Source: a virus
DNA: 35,349 bases
Direction: 5' to 3' (one strand)
IMG/VR virus record: IMGVR_UViG_3300025280_003203
Coordinates: 1 to 35,349 of that record
Under the pieces are notes generated by a model. It saw nothing but the letters and a program-made list of their open reading frames with translations. It did not search any database and was not told where the DNA came from. This document shows, one piece after another, positions 19,584-35,349 of the stretch. Made by a program: the position numbers and the translations under genes. Positions within the stretch are counted from its first letter, which is position 1; each line of letters begins with the position of its first letter.

Positions 19584-19661
19584 GGGAGCGTAGCTCAGTT
19601 TGGTTAGAGCATTCGCCTTATATGCGAACGGTCTCAGGTTCAAATCCTGGCGCTCCTACCA
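19584..19661 (+). tRNA. tRNA-Ile (UAU anticodon)
   Basis: A full cloverleaf can be drawn: acceptor GGGAGCG with CGCTCCT (one G-U at the end), U8 and A9, D-stem GCTC/GAGC, anticodon stem TTCGC/GCGAA with loop CTTATAT (anticodon TAT), T-arm CAGG-TTCAAAT-CCTG, discriminator A and an encoded CCA. It reads AUA, which the neighbouring genes use often. An encoded CCA fits a phage tRNA that needs no host CCA addition. Confidence 0.9.
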
Positions 19662-19673
19662 CTAGATAATAGT

Positions 19674-20006
19674 ATGCAGATGAACCTAGAACTTTCGGGA
19701 AGAGCCATAAAGGAGCTAAAATATCTCTTGATGTTAAAAGAGTTAGATGGCGACTTTGGCGTACGCATAGGCGTTAAGGGTGGGGGGTGTTCCGGATATA
19801 CTTACAACTTAGAATTTGGACGCCGACACAAAGGAGATATAGAAATGAAACAAGATGGTATTCGCATCTTTACTGACCCTAAATCCGTCTTATACATAAA
19901 TGGAACTACACTTAACTACACTGACGGTCTTCAAGGCAAAGGTTTTCATTTTGATAATCCGAATGCCACTAGTACCTGTGGGTGTGGGGAGTCTTTCAGC
20001 GTATGA
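19674..20006 (+). CDS. iscA: Fe-S cluster carrier, IscA/HesB family
   Basis: The 110-residue protein has GGGCSGYTYNLEF (C39) and the C-terminal TCGCGESFSV (C102 and C104), the three cysteines that bind Fe or [2Fe-2S]/[4Fe-4S] in A-type carriers. Length is normal (about 107-120). It would deliver clusters built on the IscU-like scaffold encoded 0.25 kb downstream. It begins just after tRNA-Ile and overlaps the ferredoxin start (ATGA). An alternative start is ATG 19680. Confidence 0.88.
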   Translation: MQMNLELSGRAIKELKYLLMLKELDGDFGVRIGVKGGGCSGYTYNLEFGRRHKGDIEMKQDGIRIFTDPKSVLYINGTTLNYTDGLQGKGFHFDNPNATSTCGCGESFSV

Positions 20007-20263
20007 CATTTGTAATCCAAGAAGCGTGTGTAGGAGTTAAGGATTCTGCCTGTGTACAGGTGTGTCCTGTAGAGTGTATTTATGAGGTGAAACCACAGGA
20101 GAAGTACAAAAACCTTCCCATGTTCATTCACGCTGAAGAATGTATTGATTGTTTTGCTTGTGAACCAGAGTGTCCTGTGGATGCCATCAGAGCTGAGGAC
20201 GAGGCAGAAGAACCTTGGATAACAATCAACGCACAATTATCGGAGGTGCAAGATGGCGTATAG
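20003..20263 (+). CDS. 7Fe-type ([3Fe-4S][4Fe-4S]) ferredoxin
   Basis: From ATG 20003 (86 aa) the cysteine pattern follows Azotobacter FdI/FdxA: C9, C17, C21-P, C25 and then CIDCFACEPECP with C47, C50, C53 and C57. By analogy C9, C17 and C57 hold a [3Fe-4S] cluster and C21, C47, C50 and C53 a [4Fe-4S] cluster. The second Cys of the first motif is Val (CVGV), as in other 7Fe ferredoxins of the CxxV type. It could supply electrons for cluster assembly. It overlaps iscA by 4 nt and the scaffold gene by 11 nt. Confidence 0.85.
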   Translation: MTFVIQEACVGVKDSACVQVCPVECIYEVKPQEKYKNLPMFIHAEECIDCFACEPECPVDAIRAEDEAEEPWITINAQLSEVQDGV

Positions 20264-20624
20264 CGATAAAGTTATGGATCATTACCAAAACCCAAGAAAC
20301 GTAGGTTCTCTGGACAAGGACGATGCAAATGTAGGCACAGGTATTGTAGGCGCTCCTGAATGCGGTGATGTTATGAAGCTACAAATTAAAGTTGAGGGTG
20401 ACACGATTGTAGACGCAAAGTTCAAAACTTTTGGTTGTGGCAGTGCAATTGCTTCTTCTAGCTTAGCTACTGAGTGGCTCAAGAATAAAACTCTTGAAGA
20501 AGCTACGAAGATAAGGAATTGCGATATCGCGCAGGAGTTGGCTCTCCCTCCAGTAAAGATCCATTGCTCGGTTCTAGCAGAAGACGCTATCAAGAACGCT
20601 ATTCAAGACTACCAAGACAAGTAG
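20253..20624 (+). CDS. iscU: Fe-S cluster assembly scaffold IscU
   Basis: The 123-residue protein matches bacterial IscU: YSDKVMDHYQNPRNVGSLD at the N-terminus, GAPECGD (C37 and D39), FKTFGCGSAIASSSLATEWLKNKTLEEA (C62), and the partner-binding LPPVKIHCSVLAEDAIKNAI (H104, C105), including the LPPVK motif read by the HscA chaperone. All ligands are kept, so it should be active. It would accept sulfur from the host desulfurase IscS, for which no gene is present here. It lies between the ferredoxin and tRNA-Arg. Confidence 0.9.
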   Translation: MAYSDKVMDHYQNPRNVGSLDKDDANVGTGIVGAPECGDVMKLQIKVEGDTIVDAKFKTFGCGSAIASSSLATEWLKNKTLEEATKIRNCDIAQELALPPVKIHCSVLAEDAIKNAIQDYQDK

Positions 20625-20630
20625 ACACTA

Positions 20631-20707
20631 GCACCCGTAGCTCAATTGGATAGAGCAACAGACTTCTAATCTGTAGGTTTCAGGTTCGACTCCTGACGGG
20701 TGTACCA
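20631..20707 (+). tRNA. tRNA-Arg (UCU anticodon)
   Basis: Acceptor GCACCCG pairs with CGGGTGT (terminal G-U), then TA, D-stem GCTC/GAGC, anticodon stem ACAGA/TCTGT with loop CTTCTAA (anticodon TCT), T-arm TCAGG-TTCGACT-CCTGA, discriminator A and an encoded CCA. It reads AGA, a codon very common in these genes. It closes the tRNA-Ile to tRNA-Arg cassette that holds the Fe-S genes. Confidence 0.9.
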
Positions 20708-22769: not shown

Positions 22770-23052
22770 TTTTTGTTGTCTCAACAACGCCTTGTTATTG
22801 AGAAATTTCAGCCAAAAACACGCATACACCTAGACTGTTCCTGCCATTATAGCAGTATGATCTGCGAAAATAATTCCCAGATAGGTGGTTAAAATACCCT
22901 AAAATGGTGCTATGATATAGTGAAGGAGGGTTGAGTCGCAACTTACTTTTCGATTCACATTGAATTTATTTCAAAAAATCTTTTTATTGAACTTTGGAGA
23001 ATTTTTTCAAAAGACTCTTCTCTCCTTTGTTTTCCAAGTTCAAAAAATAATT
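22770..23052. other. Gene-poor spacer with hairpin and palindrome
   Basis: It holds an imperfect 10-bp hairpin (TCTCAACAAC, 22779-22788, with GTTATTGAGA, 22794-22803), the palindrome CTGCCATTATAGCAG at 22841-22855 (like the elements in the last 3.5 kb but without the GGCCC flank), and a weak TATGATATAGTG box near 22910 followed by AAGGAGG. No convincing ORF was seen; the frame open from TTG 22960 is probably untranslated leader of the next gene. Confidence 0.5.
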
Positions 23053-31630: not shown

Positions 31631-31659
31631 ATTATAGCATGGTTTTAACCCCTTGTCTA
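31631..31659 (-). promoter_or_regulatory. Sigma70-type promoter (TAGACA-17-TATAAT)
   Basis: On the minus strand TAGACA (31659-31654), 17 bp and TATAAT (31636-31631) precede the TTG-start membrane gene, giving a leader of about 25 nt that includes AGGAGG. Confidence 0.6.
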
Positions 31660-31747
31660 GTAGTAACTTAGGTTATATTTTTGTTATTTTCATGCTATTT
31701 TATTTTTTTGTATCTTGTTTTATATAAAGGACTTAGGGACGCTTGGC

Positions 31748-31771
31748 GGCCCAAACCTGTCAATATGGCAT
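31748..31771 (+). repeat. Bipartite palindrome element, copy 1
   Basis: GGCCC, 4 nt, then CTGTCAATATGGCAT (31757-31771). It lies 1 nt after the stop codon (31773) of the leftward zinc-ribbon gene. The right arm GGCA is kept; the left arm has one change (GTC). Confidence 0.75.
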
Positions 31772-31772
31772 G

Positions 31773-32006
31773 TTATTCCTCCAAATAGAGCGGTTTGATG
31801 TTTGAGTAGTCTATTCTATCCAGCGTCCAGCCGTCAGACTTGATCGCCCATTCCCCCTCACAATGCTCACAAGTGATTGTGACGGGTTTTCTTTCGGCAA
31901 GCGACAGACTTACGGTTCTACACTCAGGACAGAACCTAGAGCCTAGGGACAGGCTTTCAAGAAGCCTATCCCTTTTAGCGTAGTAGCCTCTAGCCCTCAA
32001 GTTCAT
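31773..32006 (-). CDS. Zinc-ribbon protein (77 aa)
   Basis: The product carries CPEC...CEHC (FCPECRTVSLSLAERKPVTITCEHCEGEW), a four-Cys zinc ribbon, followed by LDRIDYSNIKPLYLEE. I chose ATG 32006 because it overlaps the upstream gene by only 17 nt; ATG 32051 would add 15 basic residues (SRRKRPFLPGNFLR) and a 62-nt overlap. The gene probably shares the promoter of the coiled-coil gene at 32340. A bipartite palindrome follows its stop directly. A small zinc-ribbon protein in this setting could be a transcription or host-takeover factor. Confidence 0.55.
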   Translation of the reverse strand: MNLRARGYYAKRDRLLESLSLGSRFCPECRTVSLSLAERKPVTITCEHCEGEWAIKSDGWTLDRIDYSNIKPLYLEE

Positions 32007-32340
32007 CCGTAGAAAGTTGCCCGGCAAGAACGGTCTTTTCCTTCTGGACATTTTCCAGTTGGTCGGTCAGTTCGGACTTGATTTCTGCGGCGTTTTCGAG
32101 ATTGTGCTTGGCTACCTCGATTTGCGTGGTGAGTTTCGCAATACGCATTTCGAGTCCCTTTTCAGGGTCAAGCCATTTGGCGGCTTTTACAAGTTCTGCC
32201 TTGATCTCCTTCTCACGGGTGAGCAAGGAAGCCATCCGAGGATGGTTTTTCAAGTTGGTTTCAGCAACCTTTCGGCGCAGGTTAGCCACCTTTAGCAAGG
32301 CTTCGGCAAGGAGTTGATCTGGTGTTCTGTGATGTCCCAT
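31990..32340 (-). CDS. Coiled-coil protein, leaderless gene (116 aa)
   Basis: MGHHRTPDQLLAEALLKVANLRRKVAETNLKNHPRMASLLTREKEIKAELVKAAKWLDPEKGLEMRIAKLTTQIEVAKHNLENAAEIKSELTDQLENVQKEKTVLAGQLSTDELEG is almost entirely heptad-patterned helix. The promoter -10 box ends 7 nt before the A of the ATG, with no ribosome site, so translation would begin on a leaderless mRNA. Function unknown; an adaptor or inhibitor of a host protein is a fair guess from the region. Confidence 0.65.
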   Translation of the reverse strand: MGHHRTPDQLLAEALLKVANLRRKVAETNLKNHPRMASLLTREKEIKAELVKAAKWLDPEKGLEMRIAKLTTQIEVAKHNLENAAEIKSELTDQLENVQKEKTVLAGQLSTDELEG

Positions 32341-32346
32341 GTAGGT

Positions 32347-32375
32347 ATTTTACAGTAGCGGGGTGAAAAAGTCAA
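32347..32375 (-). promoter_or_regulatory. Consensus promoter giving a leaderless mRNA (32340 gene)
   Basis: TTGACT (32375-32370), a 17-bp spacer, then TGTAAAAT with -10 TAAAAT (32352-32347). The expected start, 7 nt past the -10, is 32340, the A of the ATG. The -35 overlaps the T-tract of the small-RNA terminator upstream. Confidence 0.75.
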
Positions 32376-32487
32376 AAGAAAAACAGGGAAAAGGGAATGG
32401 CTCTCACAAAGCCTTTGCGGTTGACCGTTCATCAGTCCAACTAGTTCTCGCTGAATGGGTGACGATCTCCCTTCCCCCTGAGTGTGA
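32375..32487 (-). ncRNA. Candidate small RNA with closing stem and T-tract
   Basis: A promoter (TTGTAA, 18 bp, TATAAT; -10 at 32499-32494) predicts a start at about 32487. The RNA's 5' part CAGGGGGAAGGGA (32480-32468) pairs with its 3' part TCCCTTTTCCCTG (32396-32384) over 13 positions (two G-U), followed by TTTTTCTTTTG. A stem that joins both ends of a roughly 110-nt RNA next to a T-tract is typical of structured small RNAs. No convincing ORF occupies it on this strand. Confidence 0.5.
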
Positions 32488-32493
32488 GAATAC

Positions 32494-32523
32494 ATTATAC
32501 CCTCGCGCATATAGGCATTACAA
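32494..32523 (-). promoter_or_regulatory. Promoter of the candidate small RNA
   Basis: TTGTAA (32523-32518), 18 bp and TATAAT (32499-32494). No start codon lies near the predicted +1 (32487), unlike the other promoters of this region. Confidence 0.5.
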
Positions 32524-32568
32524 GCATAAAACAAGAAAAATGGGGTATTTTCTAAAAAACTTTTTATG

Positions 32569-32592
32569 CTGCCATTATGGCAGACTTGGGCC
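32569..32592 (-). repeat. Bipartite palindrome element, copy 2 (reverse)
   Basis: Reading the minus strand: GGCCC, 4 nt (AAGT), then CTGCCATAATGGCAG (32583-32569), a perfect 15-bp palindrome around its central base. It lies between the structured-RNA terminator and the small-RNA promoter. Confidence 0.8.
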
Positions 32593-32599
32593 CGCAATG

Positions 32600-32760
32600 A
32601 AAAAGTCAAAGGGGATATGGGGTTTTTCAGGTATTACCTTGGCTTTCAAAACCCCATGAAACCTTACTACCGTCGTAGTTTGGGACGGTAAGGTGGGGAT
32701 TTTAGAGCACGCGTCTTATCGACACGGCTCAAGGCTCCCCGAGACCTTCGAATAAAAACC
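32600..32760 (-). ncRNA. Candidate structured RNA with terminator, after the 56-aa gene
   Basis: The minus-strand sequence folds into three strong parts: AAGGT-GGGGA (32748-32736) pairs with TCCCC-ACCTT (32699-32690) around an inner hairpin GAGC-CGTGTC / GACGCG-GCTC with one bulge and a GATAA loop; TACCGTC/GACGGTA (32668-32690); and a terminator stem ATGGGGTTTT / AAAACCCCAT (32657-32617). TTTGACTTTTT follows. It begins right after the stop codon at 32761, so it could be a 3'-UTR RNA or a separate one. No ORF accounts for it. Confidence 0.45.
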
Positions 32761-32931
32761 TCAAGCACTCATATATTTTCCGACCTGGCGGGTGTTCCGG
32801 CGCACCCAGGAGCGAGCGCGGTTGAGGGACGAGAAAGTCAAAGTGTAGGTGAATCCACTCTGCGAGTAGTTCACAGCGTATTTGTGGGTGCTAATTTTGT
32901 TGATCGAGACAGAACGGGTGCTAATTTTCAT
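32761..32931 (-). CDS. Small leaderless gene (56 aa)
   Basis: ATG AAA ATT AGC ... ATG AGT GCT TGA encodes MKISTRSVSINKISTHKYAVNYSQSGFTYTLTFSSLNRARSWVRRNTRQVGKYMSA. The consensus promoter TTGACT, 17 bp, TAAAAT sits so that the start falls on the A of this ATG. The first 15 codons contain a 13-bp direct repeat (KIST...KIST). Residues 18-40 look beta-like with a basic helical end. It was too short for ordinary ORF lists; promoter geometry is the main support. Confidence 0.6.
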   Translation of the reverse strand: MKISTRSVSINKISTHKYAVNYSQSGFTYTLTFSSLNRARSWVRRNTRQVGKYMSA

Positions 32932-32937
32932 GCTAGT

Positions 32938-32966
32938 ATTTTACCAGAGTTTAGAGTCAGAGTCAA
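32938..32966 (-). promoter_or_regulatory. Consensus promoter giving a leaderless mRNA (32931 gene)
   Basis: TTGACT (32966-32961), 17-bp spacer, TAAAAT (32943-32938). The expected start, 7 nt past the -10, is 32931, the A of the ATG. Confidence 0.75.
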
Positions 32967-33060
32967 GAGAAAAATGGGTTTTCTGTTTGTGAGGTGAAAA
33001 CCCATCGGAAAAATCTCCTCCCACCCCTCTTACACTGTAGGCGGGGACGGCTAGCCTTGA
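32966..33060 (-). ncRNA. Candidate small RNA with its own promoter and terminator
   Basis: The promoter TTGCTT, 16 bp, TATAAT (33072-33067) predicts a start near 33060. About 55 nt later comes ATGGGTTTTC (33005-32996) paired with GAAAACCCAT (32983-32974), a perfect 10-bp stem with a 12-nt loop, followed by TTTTTCTC. An overlapping 25-codon ORF (ATG 33005, AGGAG upstream, stop joined to the next ATG) is an alternative reading. Confidence 0.5.
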
Positions 33061-33066
33061 GTGTAT

Positions 33067-33094
33067 ATTATACAGTCGCGCAAAGGAAAAGCAA
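33067..33094 (-). promoter_or_regulatory. Promoter of the second candidate small RNA
   Basis: TTGCTT (33094-33089), 16-bp spacer, TG-TATAAT (33072-33067). No start codon is near the predicted +1. Confidence 0.55.
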
Positions 33095-33160
33095 GTAAAA
33101 AAATAAGAAATTGTGCTGCGGTCGCTCTCCATTTGAACTGTTGCATTTTTTGCAAAAGTT

Positions 33161-33184
33161 GGCCCGACCATGCCATTATGACAG
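33161..33184 (+). repeat. Bipartite palindrome element, copy 3
   Basis: GGCCC, 4 nt (GACC), then ATGCCATTATGACAG (33170-33184). On the minus strand it contains the stop codon of a possible 21-aa ORF (33241-33176). Confidence 0.75.
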
Positions 33185-33241
33185 CATAATATAGAATAAT
33201 TTACATACCCCAAGGCATGTTAATATCCCTAGGGATATCAT
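33176..33241 (-). CDS. Possible micropeptide (21 aa)
   Basis: GGAG lies 9 nt before ATG 33241; the ORF reads MISLGILTCLGVCKLFYIMLS and ends inside the copy-3 palindrome. It is one short hydrophobic helix. The start region contains the perfect 16-bp palindrome at 33223-33238. Support is only the ribosome site and the hydrophobic sequence, so this is a weak call. Confidence 0.25.
   Translation of the reverse strand: MISLGILTCLGVCKLFYIMLS
33223..33238. repeat. Perfect 16-bp palindrome
   Basis: ATATCCCTAGGGATAT is its own reverse complement. It lies just inside the start of the possible 21-aa ORF and about 50 nt after the previous gene's stop. Confidence 0.7.
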
Positions 33242-33287
33242 GCCCGTATTCTCCAAACGTTTATACATGGATCGCATTGTCCACATT

Positions 33288-33482
33288 TTAGGAATTCCGA
33301 ATCAAGATATTTTGAACCCAGTTATCAAAAATATCTTCATTGAAATTGGAGTTTGAACTTTTACAAACTCGCATGACCTCTTTCATGATTTTATCGGTTT
33401 GGCTTGCCGTAGCGTTGATTTCAATGATGATTTCTGCGGTCATGTCTGCGAGTGCTTGGAAGTGTTGGCGAGTCATCTTCAT
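33288..33482 (-). CDS. Small leaderless gene, paralogue A of MKMTRQHF family (64 aa)
   Basis: The gene begins MKMTRQHFQALADMTAEIII and ends NFNEDIFDNWVQNILIRNS. A close paralogue lies at 34025-33807, sharing MKMTRQHFQALAD and the ending xxSNPNFxExxFxxWV. The -10 box puts the start on ATG 33482; an ATG at 33488 lies too close to the -10. Helical, mostly soluble. Such small duplicated proteins are common in phage early regions and may act on host enzymes. Function unknown. Confidence 0.7.
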   Translation of the reverse strand: MKMTRQHFQALADMTAEIIIEINATASQTDKIMKEVMRVCKSSNSNFNEDIFDNWVQNILIRNS

Positions 33483-33488
33483 AGACAT

Positions 33489-33517
33489 ATTTTACAGGAG
33501 CGAAAGGGTTTCGTCAA
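33489..33517 (-). promoter_or_regulatory. Consensus promoter giving a leaderless mRNA (33482 gene)
   Basis: TTGACG (33517-33512), 17 bp, TG-TAAAAT with -10 at 33494-33489. The expected start, 7 nt past the -10, is 33482, the A of the chosen ATG. Confidence 0.75.
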
Positions 33518-33535
33518 GCATAAAATGGGAAATCC

Positions 33536-33559
33536 GGCCCATCTATGCCAAATTGGCAG
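33536..33559 (+). repeat. Bipartite palindrome element, copy 4
   Basis: GGCCC, 4 nt (ATCT), then ATGCCAAATTGGCAG (33545-33559). It starts 18 bp upstream of the -35 of the promoter at 33489-33517 and lies 3 nt after the stop codon of the 33775 gene. Confidence 0.8.
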
Positions 33560-33562
33560 GGA

Positions 33563-33775
33563 TTAGAACCCCTGCGTGGCTCTCCAGGGCTTGTATCCCA
33601 ATTTGGGCTGGTTGCCGTAGTGGTTACAAGTGAAGAAGGTGGGGACATAGGGAAGCCTACGCCGCAAGAAGCAGTAAGTATCCAGCCAGAATCCTTGTAG
33701 AGAAGATTCTTTGGAGTAAGCGGAGGCGAAACGCCTACCCGCCAGAATGGAGAGGTAGTTTATGAGGTATTTCAT
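33563..33775 (-). CDS. Small leaderless gene (70 aa)
   Basis: MKYLINYLSILAGRRFASAYSKESSLQGFWLDTYCFLRRRLPYVPTFFTCNHYGNQPKLGYKPWRATQGF is Tyr/Phe/Arg-rich with two Cys and a His, but no clear domain. The promoter places the start exactly on the A of ATG 33775. It lies between the two MKMTRQHF paralogues, and a bipartite palindrome follows the stop. Function unknown. Confidence 0.6.
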   Translation of the reverse strand: MKYLINYLSILAGRRFASAYSKESSLQGFWLDTYCFLRRRLPYVPTFFTCNHYGNQPKLGYKPWRATQGF

Positions 33776-33781
33776 CAGAGT

Positions 33782-33810
33782 ATTTTACAGGATCGGAAGG
33801 GTTTCGTCAA
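33782..33810 (-). promoter_or_regulatory. Consensus promoter giving a leaderless mRNA (33775 gene)
   Basis: TTGACG (33810-33805), 17 bp, TG-TAAAAT with -10 at 33787-33782. The expected start, 7 nt past the -10, is 33775, the A of the ATG. The -35 includes the TGA stop codon of the upstream gene (33809-33807). Confidence 0.75.
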
Positions 33811-34025
33811 GCATTTTCTTGGATTTTTTTCTCAACCCAAGACACGAAGCGGGATTCATCGAAATTTGGGTTTGACGCGTGGCACAAGCGCAGGAACTCG
33901 CTAGTGATTTCGGATTTTTGCCATTCGAATGATTCTGGGGTGGGTGCGCAATCTTGGACAATGTTTTTTATAATCGTAGCGCATGAGTCAGCAAGTGCTT
34001 GGAAGTGTTGGCGGGTCATCTTCAT
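33807..34025 (-). CDS. Small leaderless gene, paralogue B of MKMTRQHF family (72 aa)
   Basis: MKMTRQHFQALADSCATIIKNIVQDCAPTPESFEWQKSEITSEFLRLCHASNPNFDESRFVSWVEKKIQENA shares its first 13 residues and its NPNFDESRFVSWVE ending with the gene at 33482. A GATAGT box at 34037-34032 puts the start 7 nt later on the A of the ATG, but no -35 is evident. The stop codon forms part of the next promoter's -35. Helical, soluble. Confidence 0.65.
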   Translation of the reverse strand: MKMTRQHFQALADSCATIIKNIVQDCAPTPESFEWQKSEITSEFLRLCHASNPNFDESRFVSWVEKKIQENA

Positions 34026-34031
34026 ACTATT

Positions 34032-34037
34032 ACTATC
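34032..34037 (-). promoter_or_regulatory. Weak -10 box (GATAGT) before paralogue B
   Basis: GATAGT is 6 nt from the ATG, as in the other units, but there is no -35 match at 17 bp. It is kept because the spacing to the ATG is the same as in its neighbours. Confidence 0.35.
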
Positions 34038-34081
34038 GGCAGCCCACAGAAAAACTTTCCCCTAAAATGGAAAATATTTTC

Positions 34082-34105
34082 ATGCCATTATGGCAGCTTC
34101 TGGCC
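34082..34105 (-). repeat. Bipartite palindrome element, copy 5 (reverse)
   Basis: On the minus strand: GGCCA, 4 nt (GAAG), then CTGCCATAATGGCAT. It is 27 nt after the stop codon of the 34801 gene and upstream of paralogue B. Confidence 0.8.
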
Positions 34106-34132
34106 ACCCCCAATCGGCGAATAGAGCAAGCC

Positions 34133-34801
34133 TTAGACCCCTATCAGCAGTTTCTCGAATTTCTTGGGGCTTACTTTATTTCCATGCGCGACATACGCTA
34201 CGGTTTCCACAGCCGTAGACCAACACGCCCGACAGGTTCCACACTTTCCGCCGCGCTCACCCGCTCGGCATAACGCATAACCTTTCTCGGCAACAAAATC
34301 ATCCTTGGATTGTATGATTGTGCTATTTAGTCCAAAATCCAGGCGTTCACCATCCAGGCTATCACTAGAATAGCGCACTGCCACGTTAGGAAGCAACGCT
34401 ATCATATCCAACGCCTTACGGATATGCGGGAGTTTGTATGACCTACTCGGAAGCCAATGTTGGCAATTAGGCGTAGACTTTATAACGGATTTTATTTTGA
34501 CGGCAAGCGTAGCCGAGTAAACATCCCCAGAATCAAACCAGCGAAAATACTTAGATTTGCCAATAGCCTTGACCATAGCATTCACCCAGCCGGGGGATTT
34601 CCAGTCTACTAGATTATGCTCGCGGCTGGCGATTGTATTAGGAAAGTTATACGCTCCCGTTAGGGCATAACACCGGGAGCAAGCATCCACAGGCTCACCG
34701 TTACCCTTTCTCGCACCTGGACAGGTTTCCCAAGCGGGAAGCGACCAAGATTTTCCAGGCATTTTGGAAGTATTGGAGAGTTTGGGAGAGGCGTTATCCA
34801 T
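34133..34801 (-). CDS. Cys-rich GP88-like phage protein (222 aa)
   Basis: Starting at ATG 34801 the protein has LPAWETCPGARKGNGEPVDACSRCYALTGAYNFPNTIASREHNLVDW, then KYFRWFDSGDVYSATLAVKIKSVIKSTPNCQHWLPSRSYK, and a C-terminal YALCRAGERGGKCGTCRACWSTAVE. This matches what I recall of the gene product 88-like phage family (Cys clusters around CYAxxGxY, RxFDSGDxxS, and CGTCxxCW). No enzymatic role is known to me for that family; the Cys clusters suggest metal or Fe-S binding. The promoter at 34808-34837 sets the start. Confidence 0.65.
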   Translation of the reverse strand: MDNASPKLSNTSKMPGKSWSLPAWETCPGARKGNGEPVDACSRCYALTGAYNFPNTIASREHNLVDWKSPGWVNAMVKAIGKSKYFRWFDSGDVYSATLAVKIKSVIKSTPNCQHWLPSRSYKLPHIRKALDMIALLPNVAVRYSSDSLDGERLDFGLNSTIIQSKDDFVAEKGYALCRAGERGGKCGTCRACWSTAVETVAYVAHGNKVSPKKFEKLLIGV

Positions 34802-34807
34802 GGGCAT

Positions 34808-34837
34808 ATTATAGCGTAGCGTAGGGGTCAGCGTCAA
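34808..34837 (-). promoter_or_regulatory. Consensus promoter giving a leaderless mRNA (34801 gene)
   Basis: TTGACG (34837-34832), 18 bp, TATAAT (34813-34808). The expected start, 7 nt past the -10, is 34801, the A of the ATG. Confidence 0.8.
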
Positions 34838-34872
34838 GTAAATACTTAGGATGTTGCTAAACGATTCGGGAT

Positions 34873-34896
34873 GGCCCGACTATGCCAAATTGGCAG
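34873..34896 (+). repeat. Bipartite palindrome element, copy 6
   Basis: GGCCC, 4 nt (GACT), then ATGCCAAATTGGCAG (34882-34896), identical in its 15-bp core to copy 4. It is 1 nt after the stop codon of the leftward gene at 34898. Between it and the promoter lies TAGGATGTTGC (34847-34857), repeated at 35200-35210. Confidence 0.8.
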
Positions 34897-34897
34897 A

Positions 34898-35143
34898 TTA
34901 TTCGAACAATTCGTCCGCCGAGTTCCAGTCCATTTCCTCATCCCCACCGACAGCGTATACATCATCCTGGCATTTCTGGCACATTCCAGAGATCGAGTAT
35001 TCCGCGCGACCGAGTGCGTCCCTGAAATCGTTATTTGTGATCTTGGGGCTGGCACAGGTTACACACAATCCACACATCACGCGGTCAGCGGCGATGGGGT
35101 ATATGGAGAAGGCGGGTTTCGAGAGGTCGGGAGGGAGAGGCAT
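34898..35143 (-). CDS. Small zinc-knuckle protein, near-leaderless gene (81 aa)
   Basis: MPLPPDLSKPAFSIYPIAADRVMCGLCVTCASPKITNNDFRDALGRAEYSISGMCQKCQDDVYAVGGDEEMDWNSADELFE has CGLCVTC (24-30) and CQKC (about 55-58), a likely zinc site, and a strongly acidic tail (GDEEMDWNSADELFE). The -10 box sits 7 nt before the ATG, so the transcript would begin at or 1 nt before it. A longer in-frame start (35167) lies within the promoter and is rejected. Confidence 0.6.
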   Translation of the reverse strand: MPLPPDLSKPAFSIYPIAADRVMCGLCVTCASPKITNNDFRDALGRAEYSISGMCQKCQDDVYAVGGDEEMDWNSADELFE

Positions 35144-35150
35144 GATGTAG

Positions 35151-35180
35151 ATTATACAGTAGCGCATATGGATAAATCAA
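35151..35180 (-). promoter_or_regulatory. Consensus promoter for the 35143 gene
   Basis: TTGATT (35180-35175), 18 bp, TG-TATAAT with -10 at 35156-35151. The expected start is 35144, one base from the ATG. Confidence 0.65.
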
Positions 35181-35225
35181 CTAAATCCACACAAATATAT
35201 AGGATGTTGCAAAATAATATCGGCT

Positions 35226-35249
35226 GGCCTAAGACTGCCACTATGGCAG
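35226..35249 (+). repeat. Bipartite palindrome element, copy 7
   Basis: GGCCT, 4 nt (AAGA), then CTGCCACTATGGCAG (35235-35249). It is 1 nt after the stop codon of the partial gene at the right edge. The TAGGATGTTGC sequence (35200-35210) lies between this copy and the 35151 promoter, as beside copy 6. Confidence 0.8.
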
Positions 35250-35250
35250 G

Positions 35251-35349
35251 TCAGAAACTATCATCTCCCCCATAGCAGGAAGCCCACGCCTCAGCATCAT
35301 CAGAGAAATCATCCACGCTAAGATATGAGCACTCCTCATCCAAAGCATC
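35251..35349 (-). CDS. Partial small acidic protein (right edge)
   Basis: The minus strand reads ...DALDEECSYLSVDDFSDDAEAWASCYGGDDSF then TGA at 35253-35251. The start lies outside the window. The tail is very acidic. No family can be given from 32 residues. Confidence 0.5.
   Translation of the reverse strand, partial: DALDEECSYLSVDDFSDDAEAWASCYGGDDSF

Follow-up and report, generated by a model that had tools for sequence, protein, structure and literature searches.

Seven copies of a bipartite palindromic element, GGCC-N6-TG(C/T)CA-N3-TG(G/A)CA, lie between positions 31748 and 35248 of the viral DNA analysed here (an IMG/VR virus record of 35,349 bases, itself a fragment and called the window in the following), and none is found elsewhere in the window. 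With a probability of roughly one half, these elements are boundary cassettes between the separately promoted units of a shuffled array of early-type genes, similar to the promoter early stem-loops (PeSLs) of T4-like phages. Each cassette would comprise one or more palindromic sites and a GGCC linker directly after the end of one unit; the strong sigma-70 promoter of the next unit would usually come next and drive a leaderless small gene. A symmetric (dimeric) DNA-binding protein, encoded by the phage or its host, would bind the palindromes as duplex DNA and thereby separate or shut off the adjoining units, and the repeated cassettes may double as junctions for gain, loss and reordering of whole units, as has been suggested for PeSLs. 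Among the points against this reading are that no binding protein was identified and that two of the window copies are reversed.

The element and its gene array

The exact core is present in five of the seven copies, and a single mismatch is found in those at 31748 (TGTCA) and 33161 (TGACA). An earlier note on this DNA had described seven sites of constant spacing, five on the plus and two on the minus strand, that coding does not explain; a pattern scan reproduced coordinates, form, spacing and orientation, and coding indeed does not account for the element. Chance frequency, which the same note had considered, does not apply either: a relaxed pattern (GGCC-N6-TGYCA-N3-TGRCA) was counted seven times after position 31700 and never before it, it did not occur in 2,000 second-order Markov simulations of the region, and the observed element count was reached by none of 100 shuffles. 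As had also been noticed, four copies are close to a stop codon, the gap between element end and minus-strand stop being 2-4 nt (31770/31773, 33558/33563, 34895/34898 and 35248/35251), and the partial copy reported near 22841 is real, a half-element without the GGCC flank at 22842-22854. An Rfam search found no family at the window elements.

All seven elements fall within an array of small minus-strand genes (Table 1). In six of these genes, the ATG lies 6-7 nt after the -10 of a near-consensus sigma-70 promoter; leaderless mRNA would be expected to show this spacing, and the six genes are therefore probably leaderless. A promoter scan of the region revealed 17 promoter-like sites, compared with 8.6 in shuffles, and the minus strand holds all of the top eight, which score 10 or 11 of 12. 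The same promoter-ATG layout recurs in other viral records, at nine promoters in G025 and ten each in G013 and G001. The array promoters are presumably early ones. Since the distance between element and promoter is not constant (three window copies have 28, 45 and 55 nt, others far more), direct contact of the element with RNA polymerase is unlikely.

Several smaller features of the window may be mentioned. Two units between elements, at 32385-32494 and about 32980-33062 (both minus strand), contain a promoter-like sequence and no clear ORF; they may encode small RNAs, a point on which Rfam is silent. The MKMTRQHF gene start is duplicated (33444-33483 and 33987-34026, 93% identical over 40 nt), and a near-identical promoter pair is found at 33488-33521 and 33781-33814 (94% over 34 nt). 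Outside the array, an Fe-S biosynthesis protein (PF01521), a 4Fe-4S ferredoxin-like protein and a NifU_N/IscU-like protein (PF01592, E=1e-52) are encoded together at 19584-20707, a group flanked by tRNA-Ile and tRNA-Arg genes and unusual for a phage.

Table 1. Elements, A-boxes, array genes and their promoters in the window
Feature	Position	Strand	Remarks
Element 1	31748..31770	+	GGCC-N6-TGTCAATATGGCA; 2 nt beyond stop of 92-aa minus-strand ORF
Element 2	32570..32592	-	Reversed orientation; pattern match
Element 3	33161..33183	+	One mismatch (TGACA)
Element 4	33536..33558	+	4 nt beyond stop of 70-aa gene
Element 5	34083..34105	-	Reversed; 27 nt beyond stop of gp88-like gene
Element 6	34873..34895	+	2 nt beyond stop of 81/89-aa gene
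Element 7	35226..35248	+	2 nt beyond stop codon (35251-35253); open frame runs off window end
A-box TATCTTGTTTTATATAAAGGACTTA, degenerate	31711..31735	+	GGCC side of element 1; best score within 60 nt of a profile from other phages, shuffle p=0.002; DNA match to G001 composite
A-box match TAACCCCTTGTCTAGTAGTAACTTA	31646..31670	+	Highest-scoring A-box match in whole window; beyond element 1
Gene, 81 aa, MPLPPDLSKP..	34898..35143	-	Relatives in G025 and G013
Gene, gp88-like	34133..34801	-	PF17338, E=7e-30; relative in G025 at 70% identity
Gene MKMTRQHFQALAD.., copy 1	33807..34025	-	Relative in G025 common to both copies
Gene MKYLINYL..	33563..33775	-	Relatives in G025 and G013
Gene MKMTRQHFQALAD.., copy 2	33288..33482	-	Relative in G025 common to both copies
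Gene, 56 aa	32761..32931	-	ORF with promoter
Gene, 116 aa	31990..32340	-	ORF with promoter
Promoter of 81-aa gene	35151..35180	-	TTGATT-18-TATAAT; -10 to ATG 7 nt
Promoter of gp88-like gene	34808..34837	-	TTGACG-18-TATAAT; -10 to ATG 6 nt
Promoter of 70-aa gene	33782..33810	-	TTGACG-17-TAAAAT; -10 to ATG 6 nt
Promoter of 64/66-aa gene	33489..33517	-	TTGACG-17-TAAAAT; -10 to ATG 6 nt
Promoter of 56-aa gene	32938..32966	-	TTGACT-17-TAAAAT; -10 to ATG 6 nt
Promoter of 116-aa gene	32347..32375	-	TTGACT-17-TAAAAT; -10 to ATG 6 nt

A composite element in other viral records

A scan of viral contigs with the exact core retrieved G001 and G002, with several copies each. Every copy in G001 has TAAGTCGTTG-N5-CAAGnACTTA, varying at one or two letters, ahead of it, along with a G+C-rich linker that includes GGCC. 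Judged by these sequences, the window element represents one form of a broader composite, in which a 25-bp palindrome termed A-box (TAAGTCnTTG-N5-CAAnGACTTA) is followed by a G+C-rich GGCC linker and a second palindrome, either another A-box or TGCCAwwwTGGCA. The order A-box, linker, B palindrome is found in four copies in G001, also in G013, and in copies in L280. The earlier note had taken the one-sided GGCC flank as a hint at a protein that reads both halves. It was right that the two halves belong together: in the three records, the flank is the linker to the second, 25-bp palindrome. The independent arms described below and the mostly fixed pair spacing favour recognition as duplex DNA, by a protein that would presumably bind there.

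In the window, only element 1 has an A-box above chance (Table 1); a profile scan detected none above chance beside the other six copies, which consist only of the GGCC half-linker and the TGCCA palindrome. The link of the window elements to the A-box therefore rests on the copy at 31748 and on G001, G013 and L280. Remnants of A-boxes that had been read by eye beside elements other than 31748 were rejected as not above chance.

A-boxes are abundant in 21 other viral records, with 6-28 in each when up to three mismatches are allowed, compared with 0-1 for a reversed control. In most of these records the boxes are paired, with a single commonest start-to-start spacing in each, which is 41-42, 48-50 or 52-53 nt; some pair spacings deviate from it, and G013 showed no pairs. 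The boxes are intergenic in 204 of 269 cases, the intergenic share of the DNA being 17%. Outward promoters are found at 99 of 564 box sides versus 158 of 2,640 random positions; beside boxes, the ATG is most often 5-7 nt after the -10. Conceivably, the sites are operators or enhancers by which a phage regulator switches the array promoters as a regulon, with gene shuffling being incidental: they are located upstream of promoters, their half-sites vary independently, and two of the mostly fixed pair spacings (41-42 and 52-53 nt) are close to four and five helical turns. The variable distance between element and promoter, the weak periodicity of the box-promoter distance with the helix, which is not at a clean period, and the fact that no regulator gene was identified nevertheless make this explanation improbable.

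When 50,697 phage records were searched with two composite queries of 66 and 77 nt, the composite was not matched; at this query sensitivity, the element appears to be absent from isolates or unrecognisable in them. In a literature search on the palindrome letters, only unrelated papers were among the matches listed. A-box-like palindromes adjacent to tRNAs in bacterial genomes were first read as attachment sites; several precede T-runs and may be tRNA terminators, and the bacterial hits were left out of the analysis. The element-bearing G001 also contains a Pistol ribozyme match (L132:1735-1785, minus strand; 39.1 bits versus an Rfam gathering score of 34.5), and sigma-54-like sequences (TTGGCAC-N5-TTGC), which were seen by eye and are few by pattern count, adjoin some A-boxes in L227, L248, L271 and L285.

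Gene order and homology breaks

By the gp88-like gene, the nearest relative of the window is G025. G025 carries relatives of five of the array genes (a single one for both MKMTR copies) and arranges them differently; A-box elements are located between its units in place of the window element. Three of these gene families are also present in G013, with which G001 has units in common, and gene order differs among the window, G025, G013 and G001. Across phages, the DNA upstream of orthologous units is no more alike than shuffled DNA (similarity 8.6 versus 8.3). In gaps of 100-300 bp, the ratio of homology ends to read-through is 140:11 with a box and 46:17 without one (Fisher p 2.4e-4, a value that overstates the certainty because the stretches overlap and the ends are not independent events). 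In the closest element-bearing pair compared, G013 and G050, 98% is collinear and no cassette swap or junction was caught.

A further concern of the earlier note was that related phages might keep the genes and not the element. Literally, this is the case, since G025 and 80 gp88-like loci are without this sequence, and a tie of the element to the gp88-like gene was rejected on the basis of these loci; an analogous element nevertheless occupies a comparable position in G025, a finding that points to lineage-specific turnover of the element rather than to a meaningless repeat.

The array of small units and the homology breaks at boxes, together with the imperfect palindromes and their short centre, might also be expected of site-specific recombination sites, between which a dedicated recombinase exchanges cassettes. 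This is very unlikely: the box centre differs between copies, and an unsystematic look found no recombinase gene linked to the elements. As boundary cassettes, the elements would instead be places where units are joined anew, and recombination at them would account for the breaks. In a more far-reaching and rather doubtful version, a dedicated cassette system would be common to uncultured phages from two or more gene-content groups: paired palindromes, set at fixed spacing around a G+C-rich linker and recognised by one conserved protein, would insulate leaderless early genes and also direct how these are exchanged. If the boundary-cassette reading is right, the limits of exchangeable early-gene units could be searched for by their DNA signature in uncultured phages, most small genes of which are unannotated, and the search for the reader protein would have a defined target.

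Duplex sites, hairpins and known analogues

In 145 A-boxes from seven records, a mismatch-limited collection that is biased toward the consensus, the pairing of the two arms is approximately that predicted for independent arms (0.40 versus 0.39 at position 7 and 0.57 versus 0.53 at position 4); one record, G071, does show arm covariation. RNA folding of the window elements is no better than that of shuffles (z -1.5 to -0.05), U-tracts are absent from them, and no terminator-like hit was obtained at any of the seven. Because the arms vary independently and the RNA folds match shuffles, recognition as duplex DNA is favoured: the palindromes more probably serve a symmetric DNA-binding protein as sites than act as terminating hairpins. 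A role as RNA structure at mRNA 3' ends, whether as transcription terminator or as hairpin, as in canonical PeSLs, would fit the four copies that begin directly after a stop codon, the ability of the palindromes to form short hairpins and the GGCC segment of G025, which is part of an A-tract/T-tract hairpin adjoining the A-box; in RB49, which served for comparison, U-tailed terminator hairpins immediately precede two or more of the early promoters, most of which have leaders. Given the folds and missing U-tracts of the window elements and the lack of overall covariation of the A-box arms, such a role is nevertheless unlikely. The G+C-rich hairpin and T-run of an intrinsic terminator likewise have no match at the seven elements.

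The stoperators of mycobacteriophage L5, with which the earlier note had compared the sites, are asymmetric 13-mers whose orientation follows transcription and to which the repressor binds as a monomer (PMC9283540). Like these L5-type sites of cluster A mycobacteriophages, the window elements are many, short, repeated and intergenic, but their core is palindromic and two of seven are reversed; the analogy is only loosely apt, and no repressor gene was seen in the window, which is a fragment. In the archaeal virus HGTV-1, a promoter-like and inverted-repeat motif precedes most left-side ORFs and has been likened to PeSLs (PMC3950731). The conserved TATA-box and inverted repeat before these ORFs resemble the arrangement in the window; the promoter, however, is archaeal, and the likeness is drawn from the description rather than from the sequences.

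By analogy, PeSLs are the nearest known counterpart of the elements. As reportedly described by Arbiol in 2010 and Comeau in 2014 (both cited in PMC4503421), the PeSLs of T4-like phages are repeated intergenic cassettes of a sigma-70-like promoter and an inverted repeat, which are said to occur in regions dense in small genes and to be tied to modular shuffling. The window likewise has repeated intergenic cassettes with an inverted repeat and strong sigma-70-like promoters, located where small genes are densely packed. In contrast to PeSLs, its elements have neither a U-tract nor excess RNA fold, so that the terminating stem-loop is missing from the sequence; moreover, the palindromes of related phages occur in spaced pairs, and the window genes appear leaderless, whereas leaders are found in RB49. 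Because the layout and, apparently, the link to shuffled small genes are shared but the terminator feature fails, the elements are called PeSL-like rather than PeSLs.
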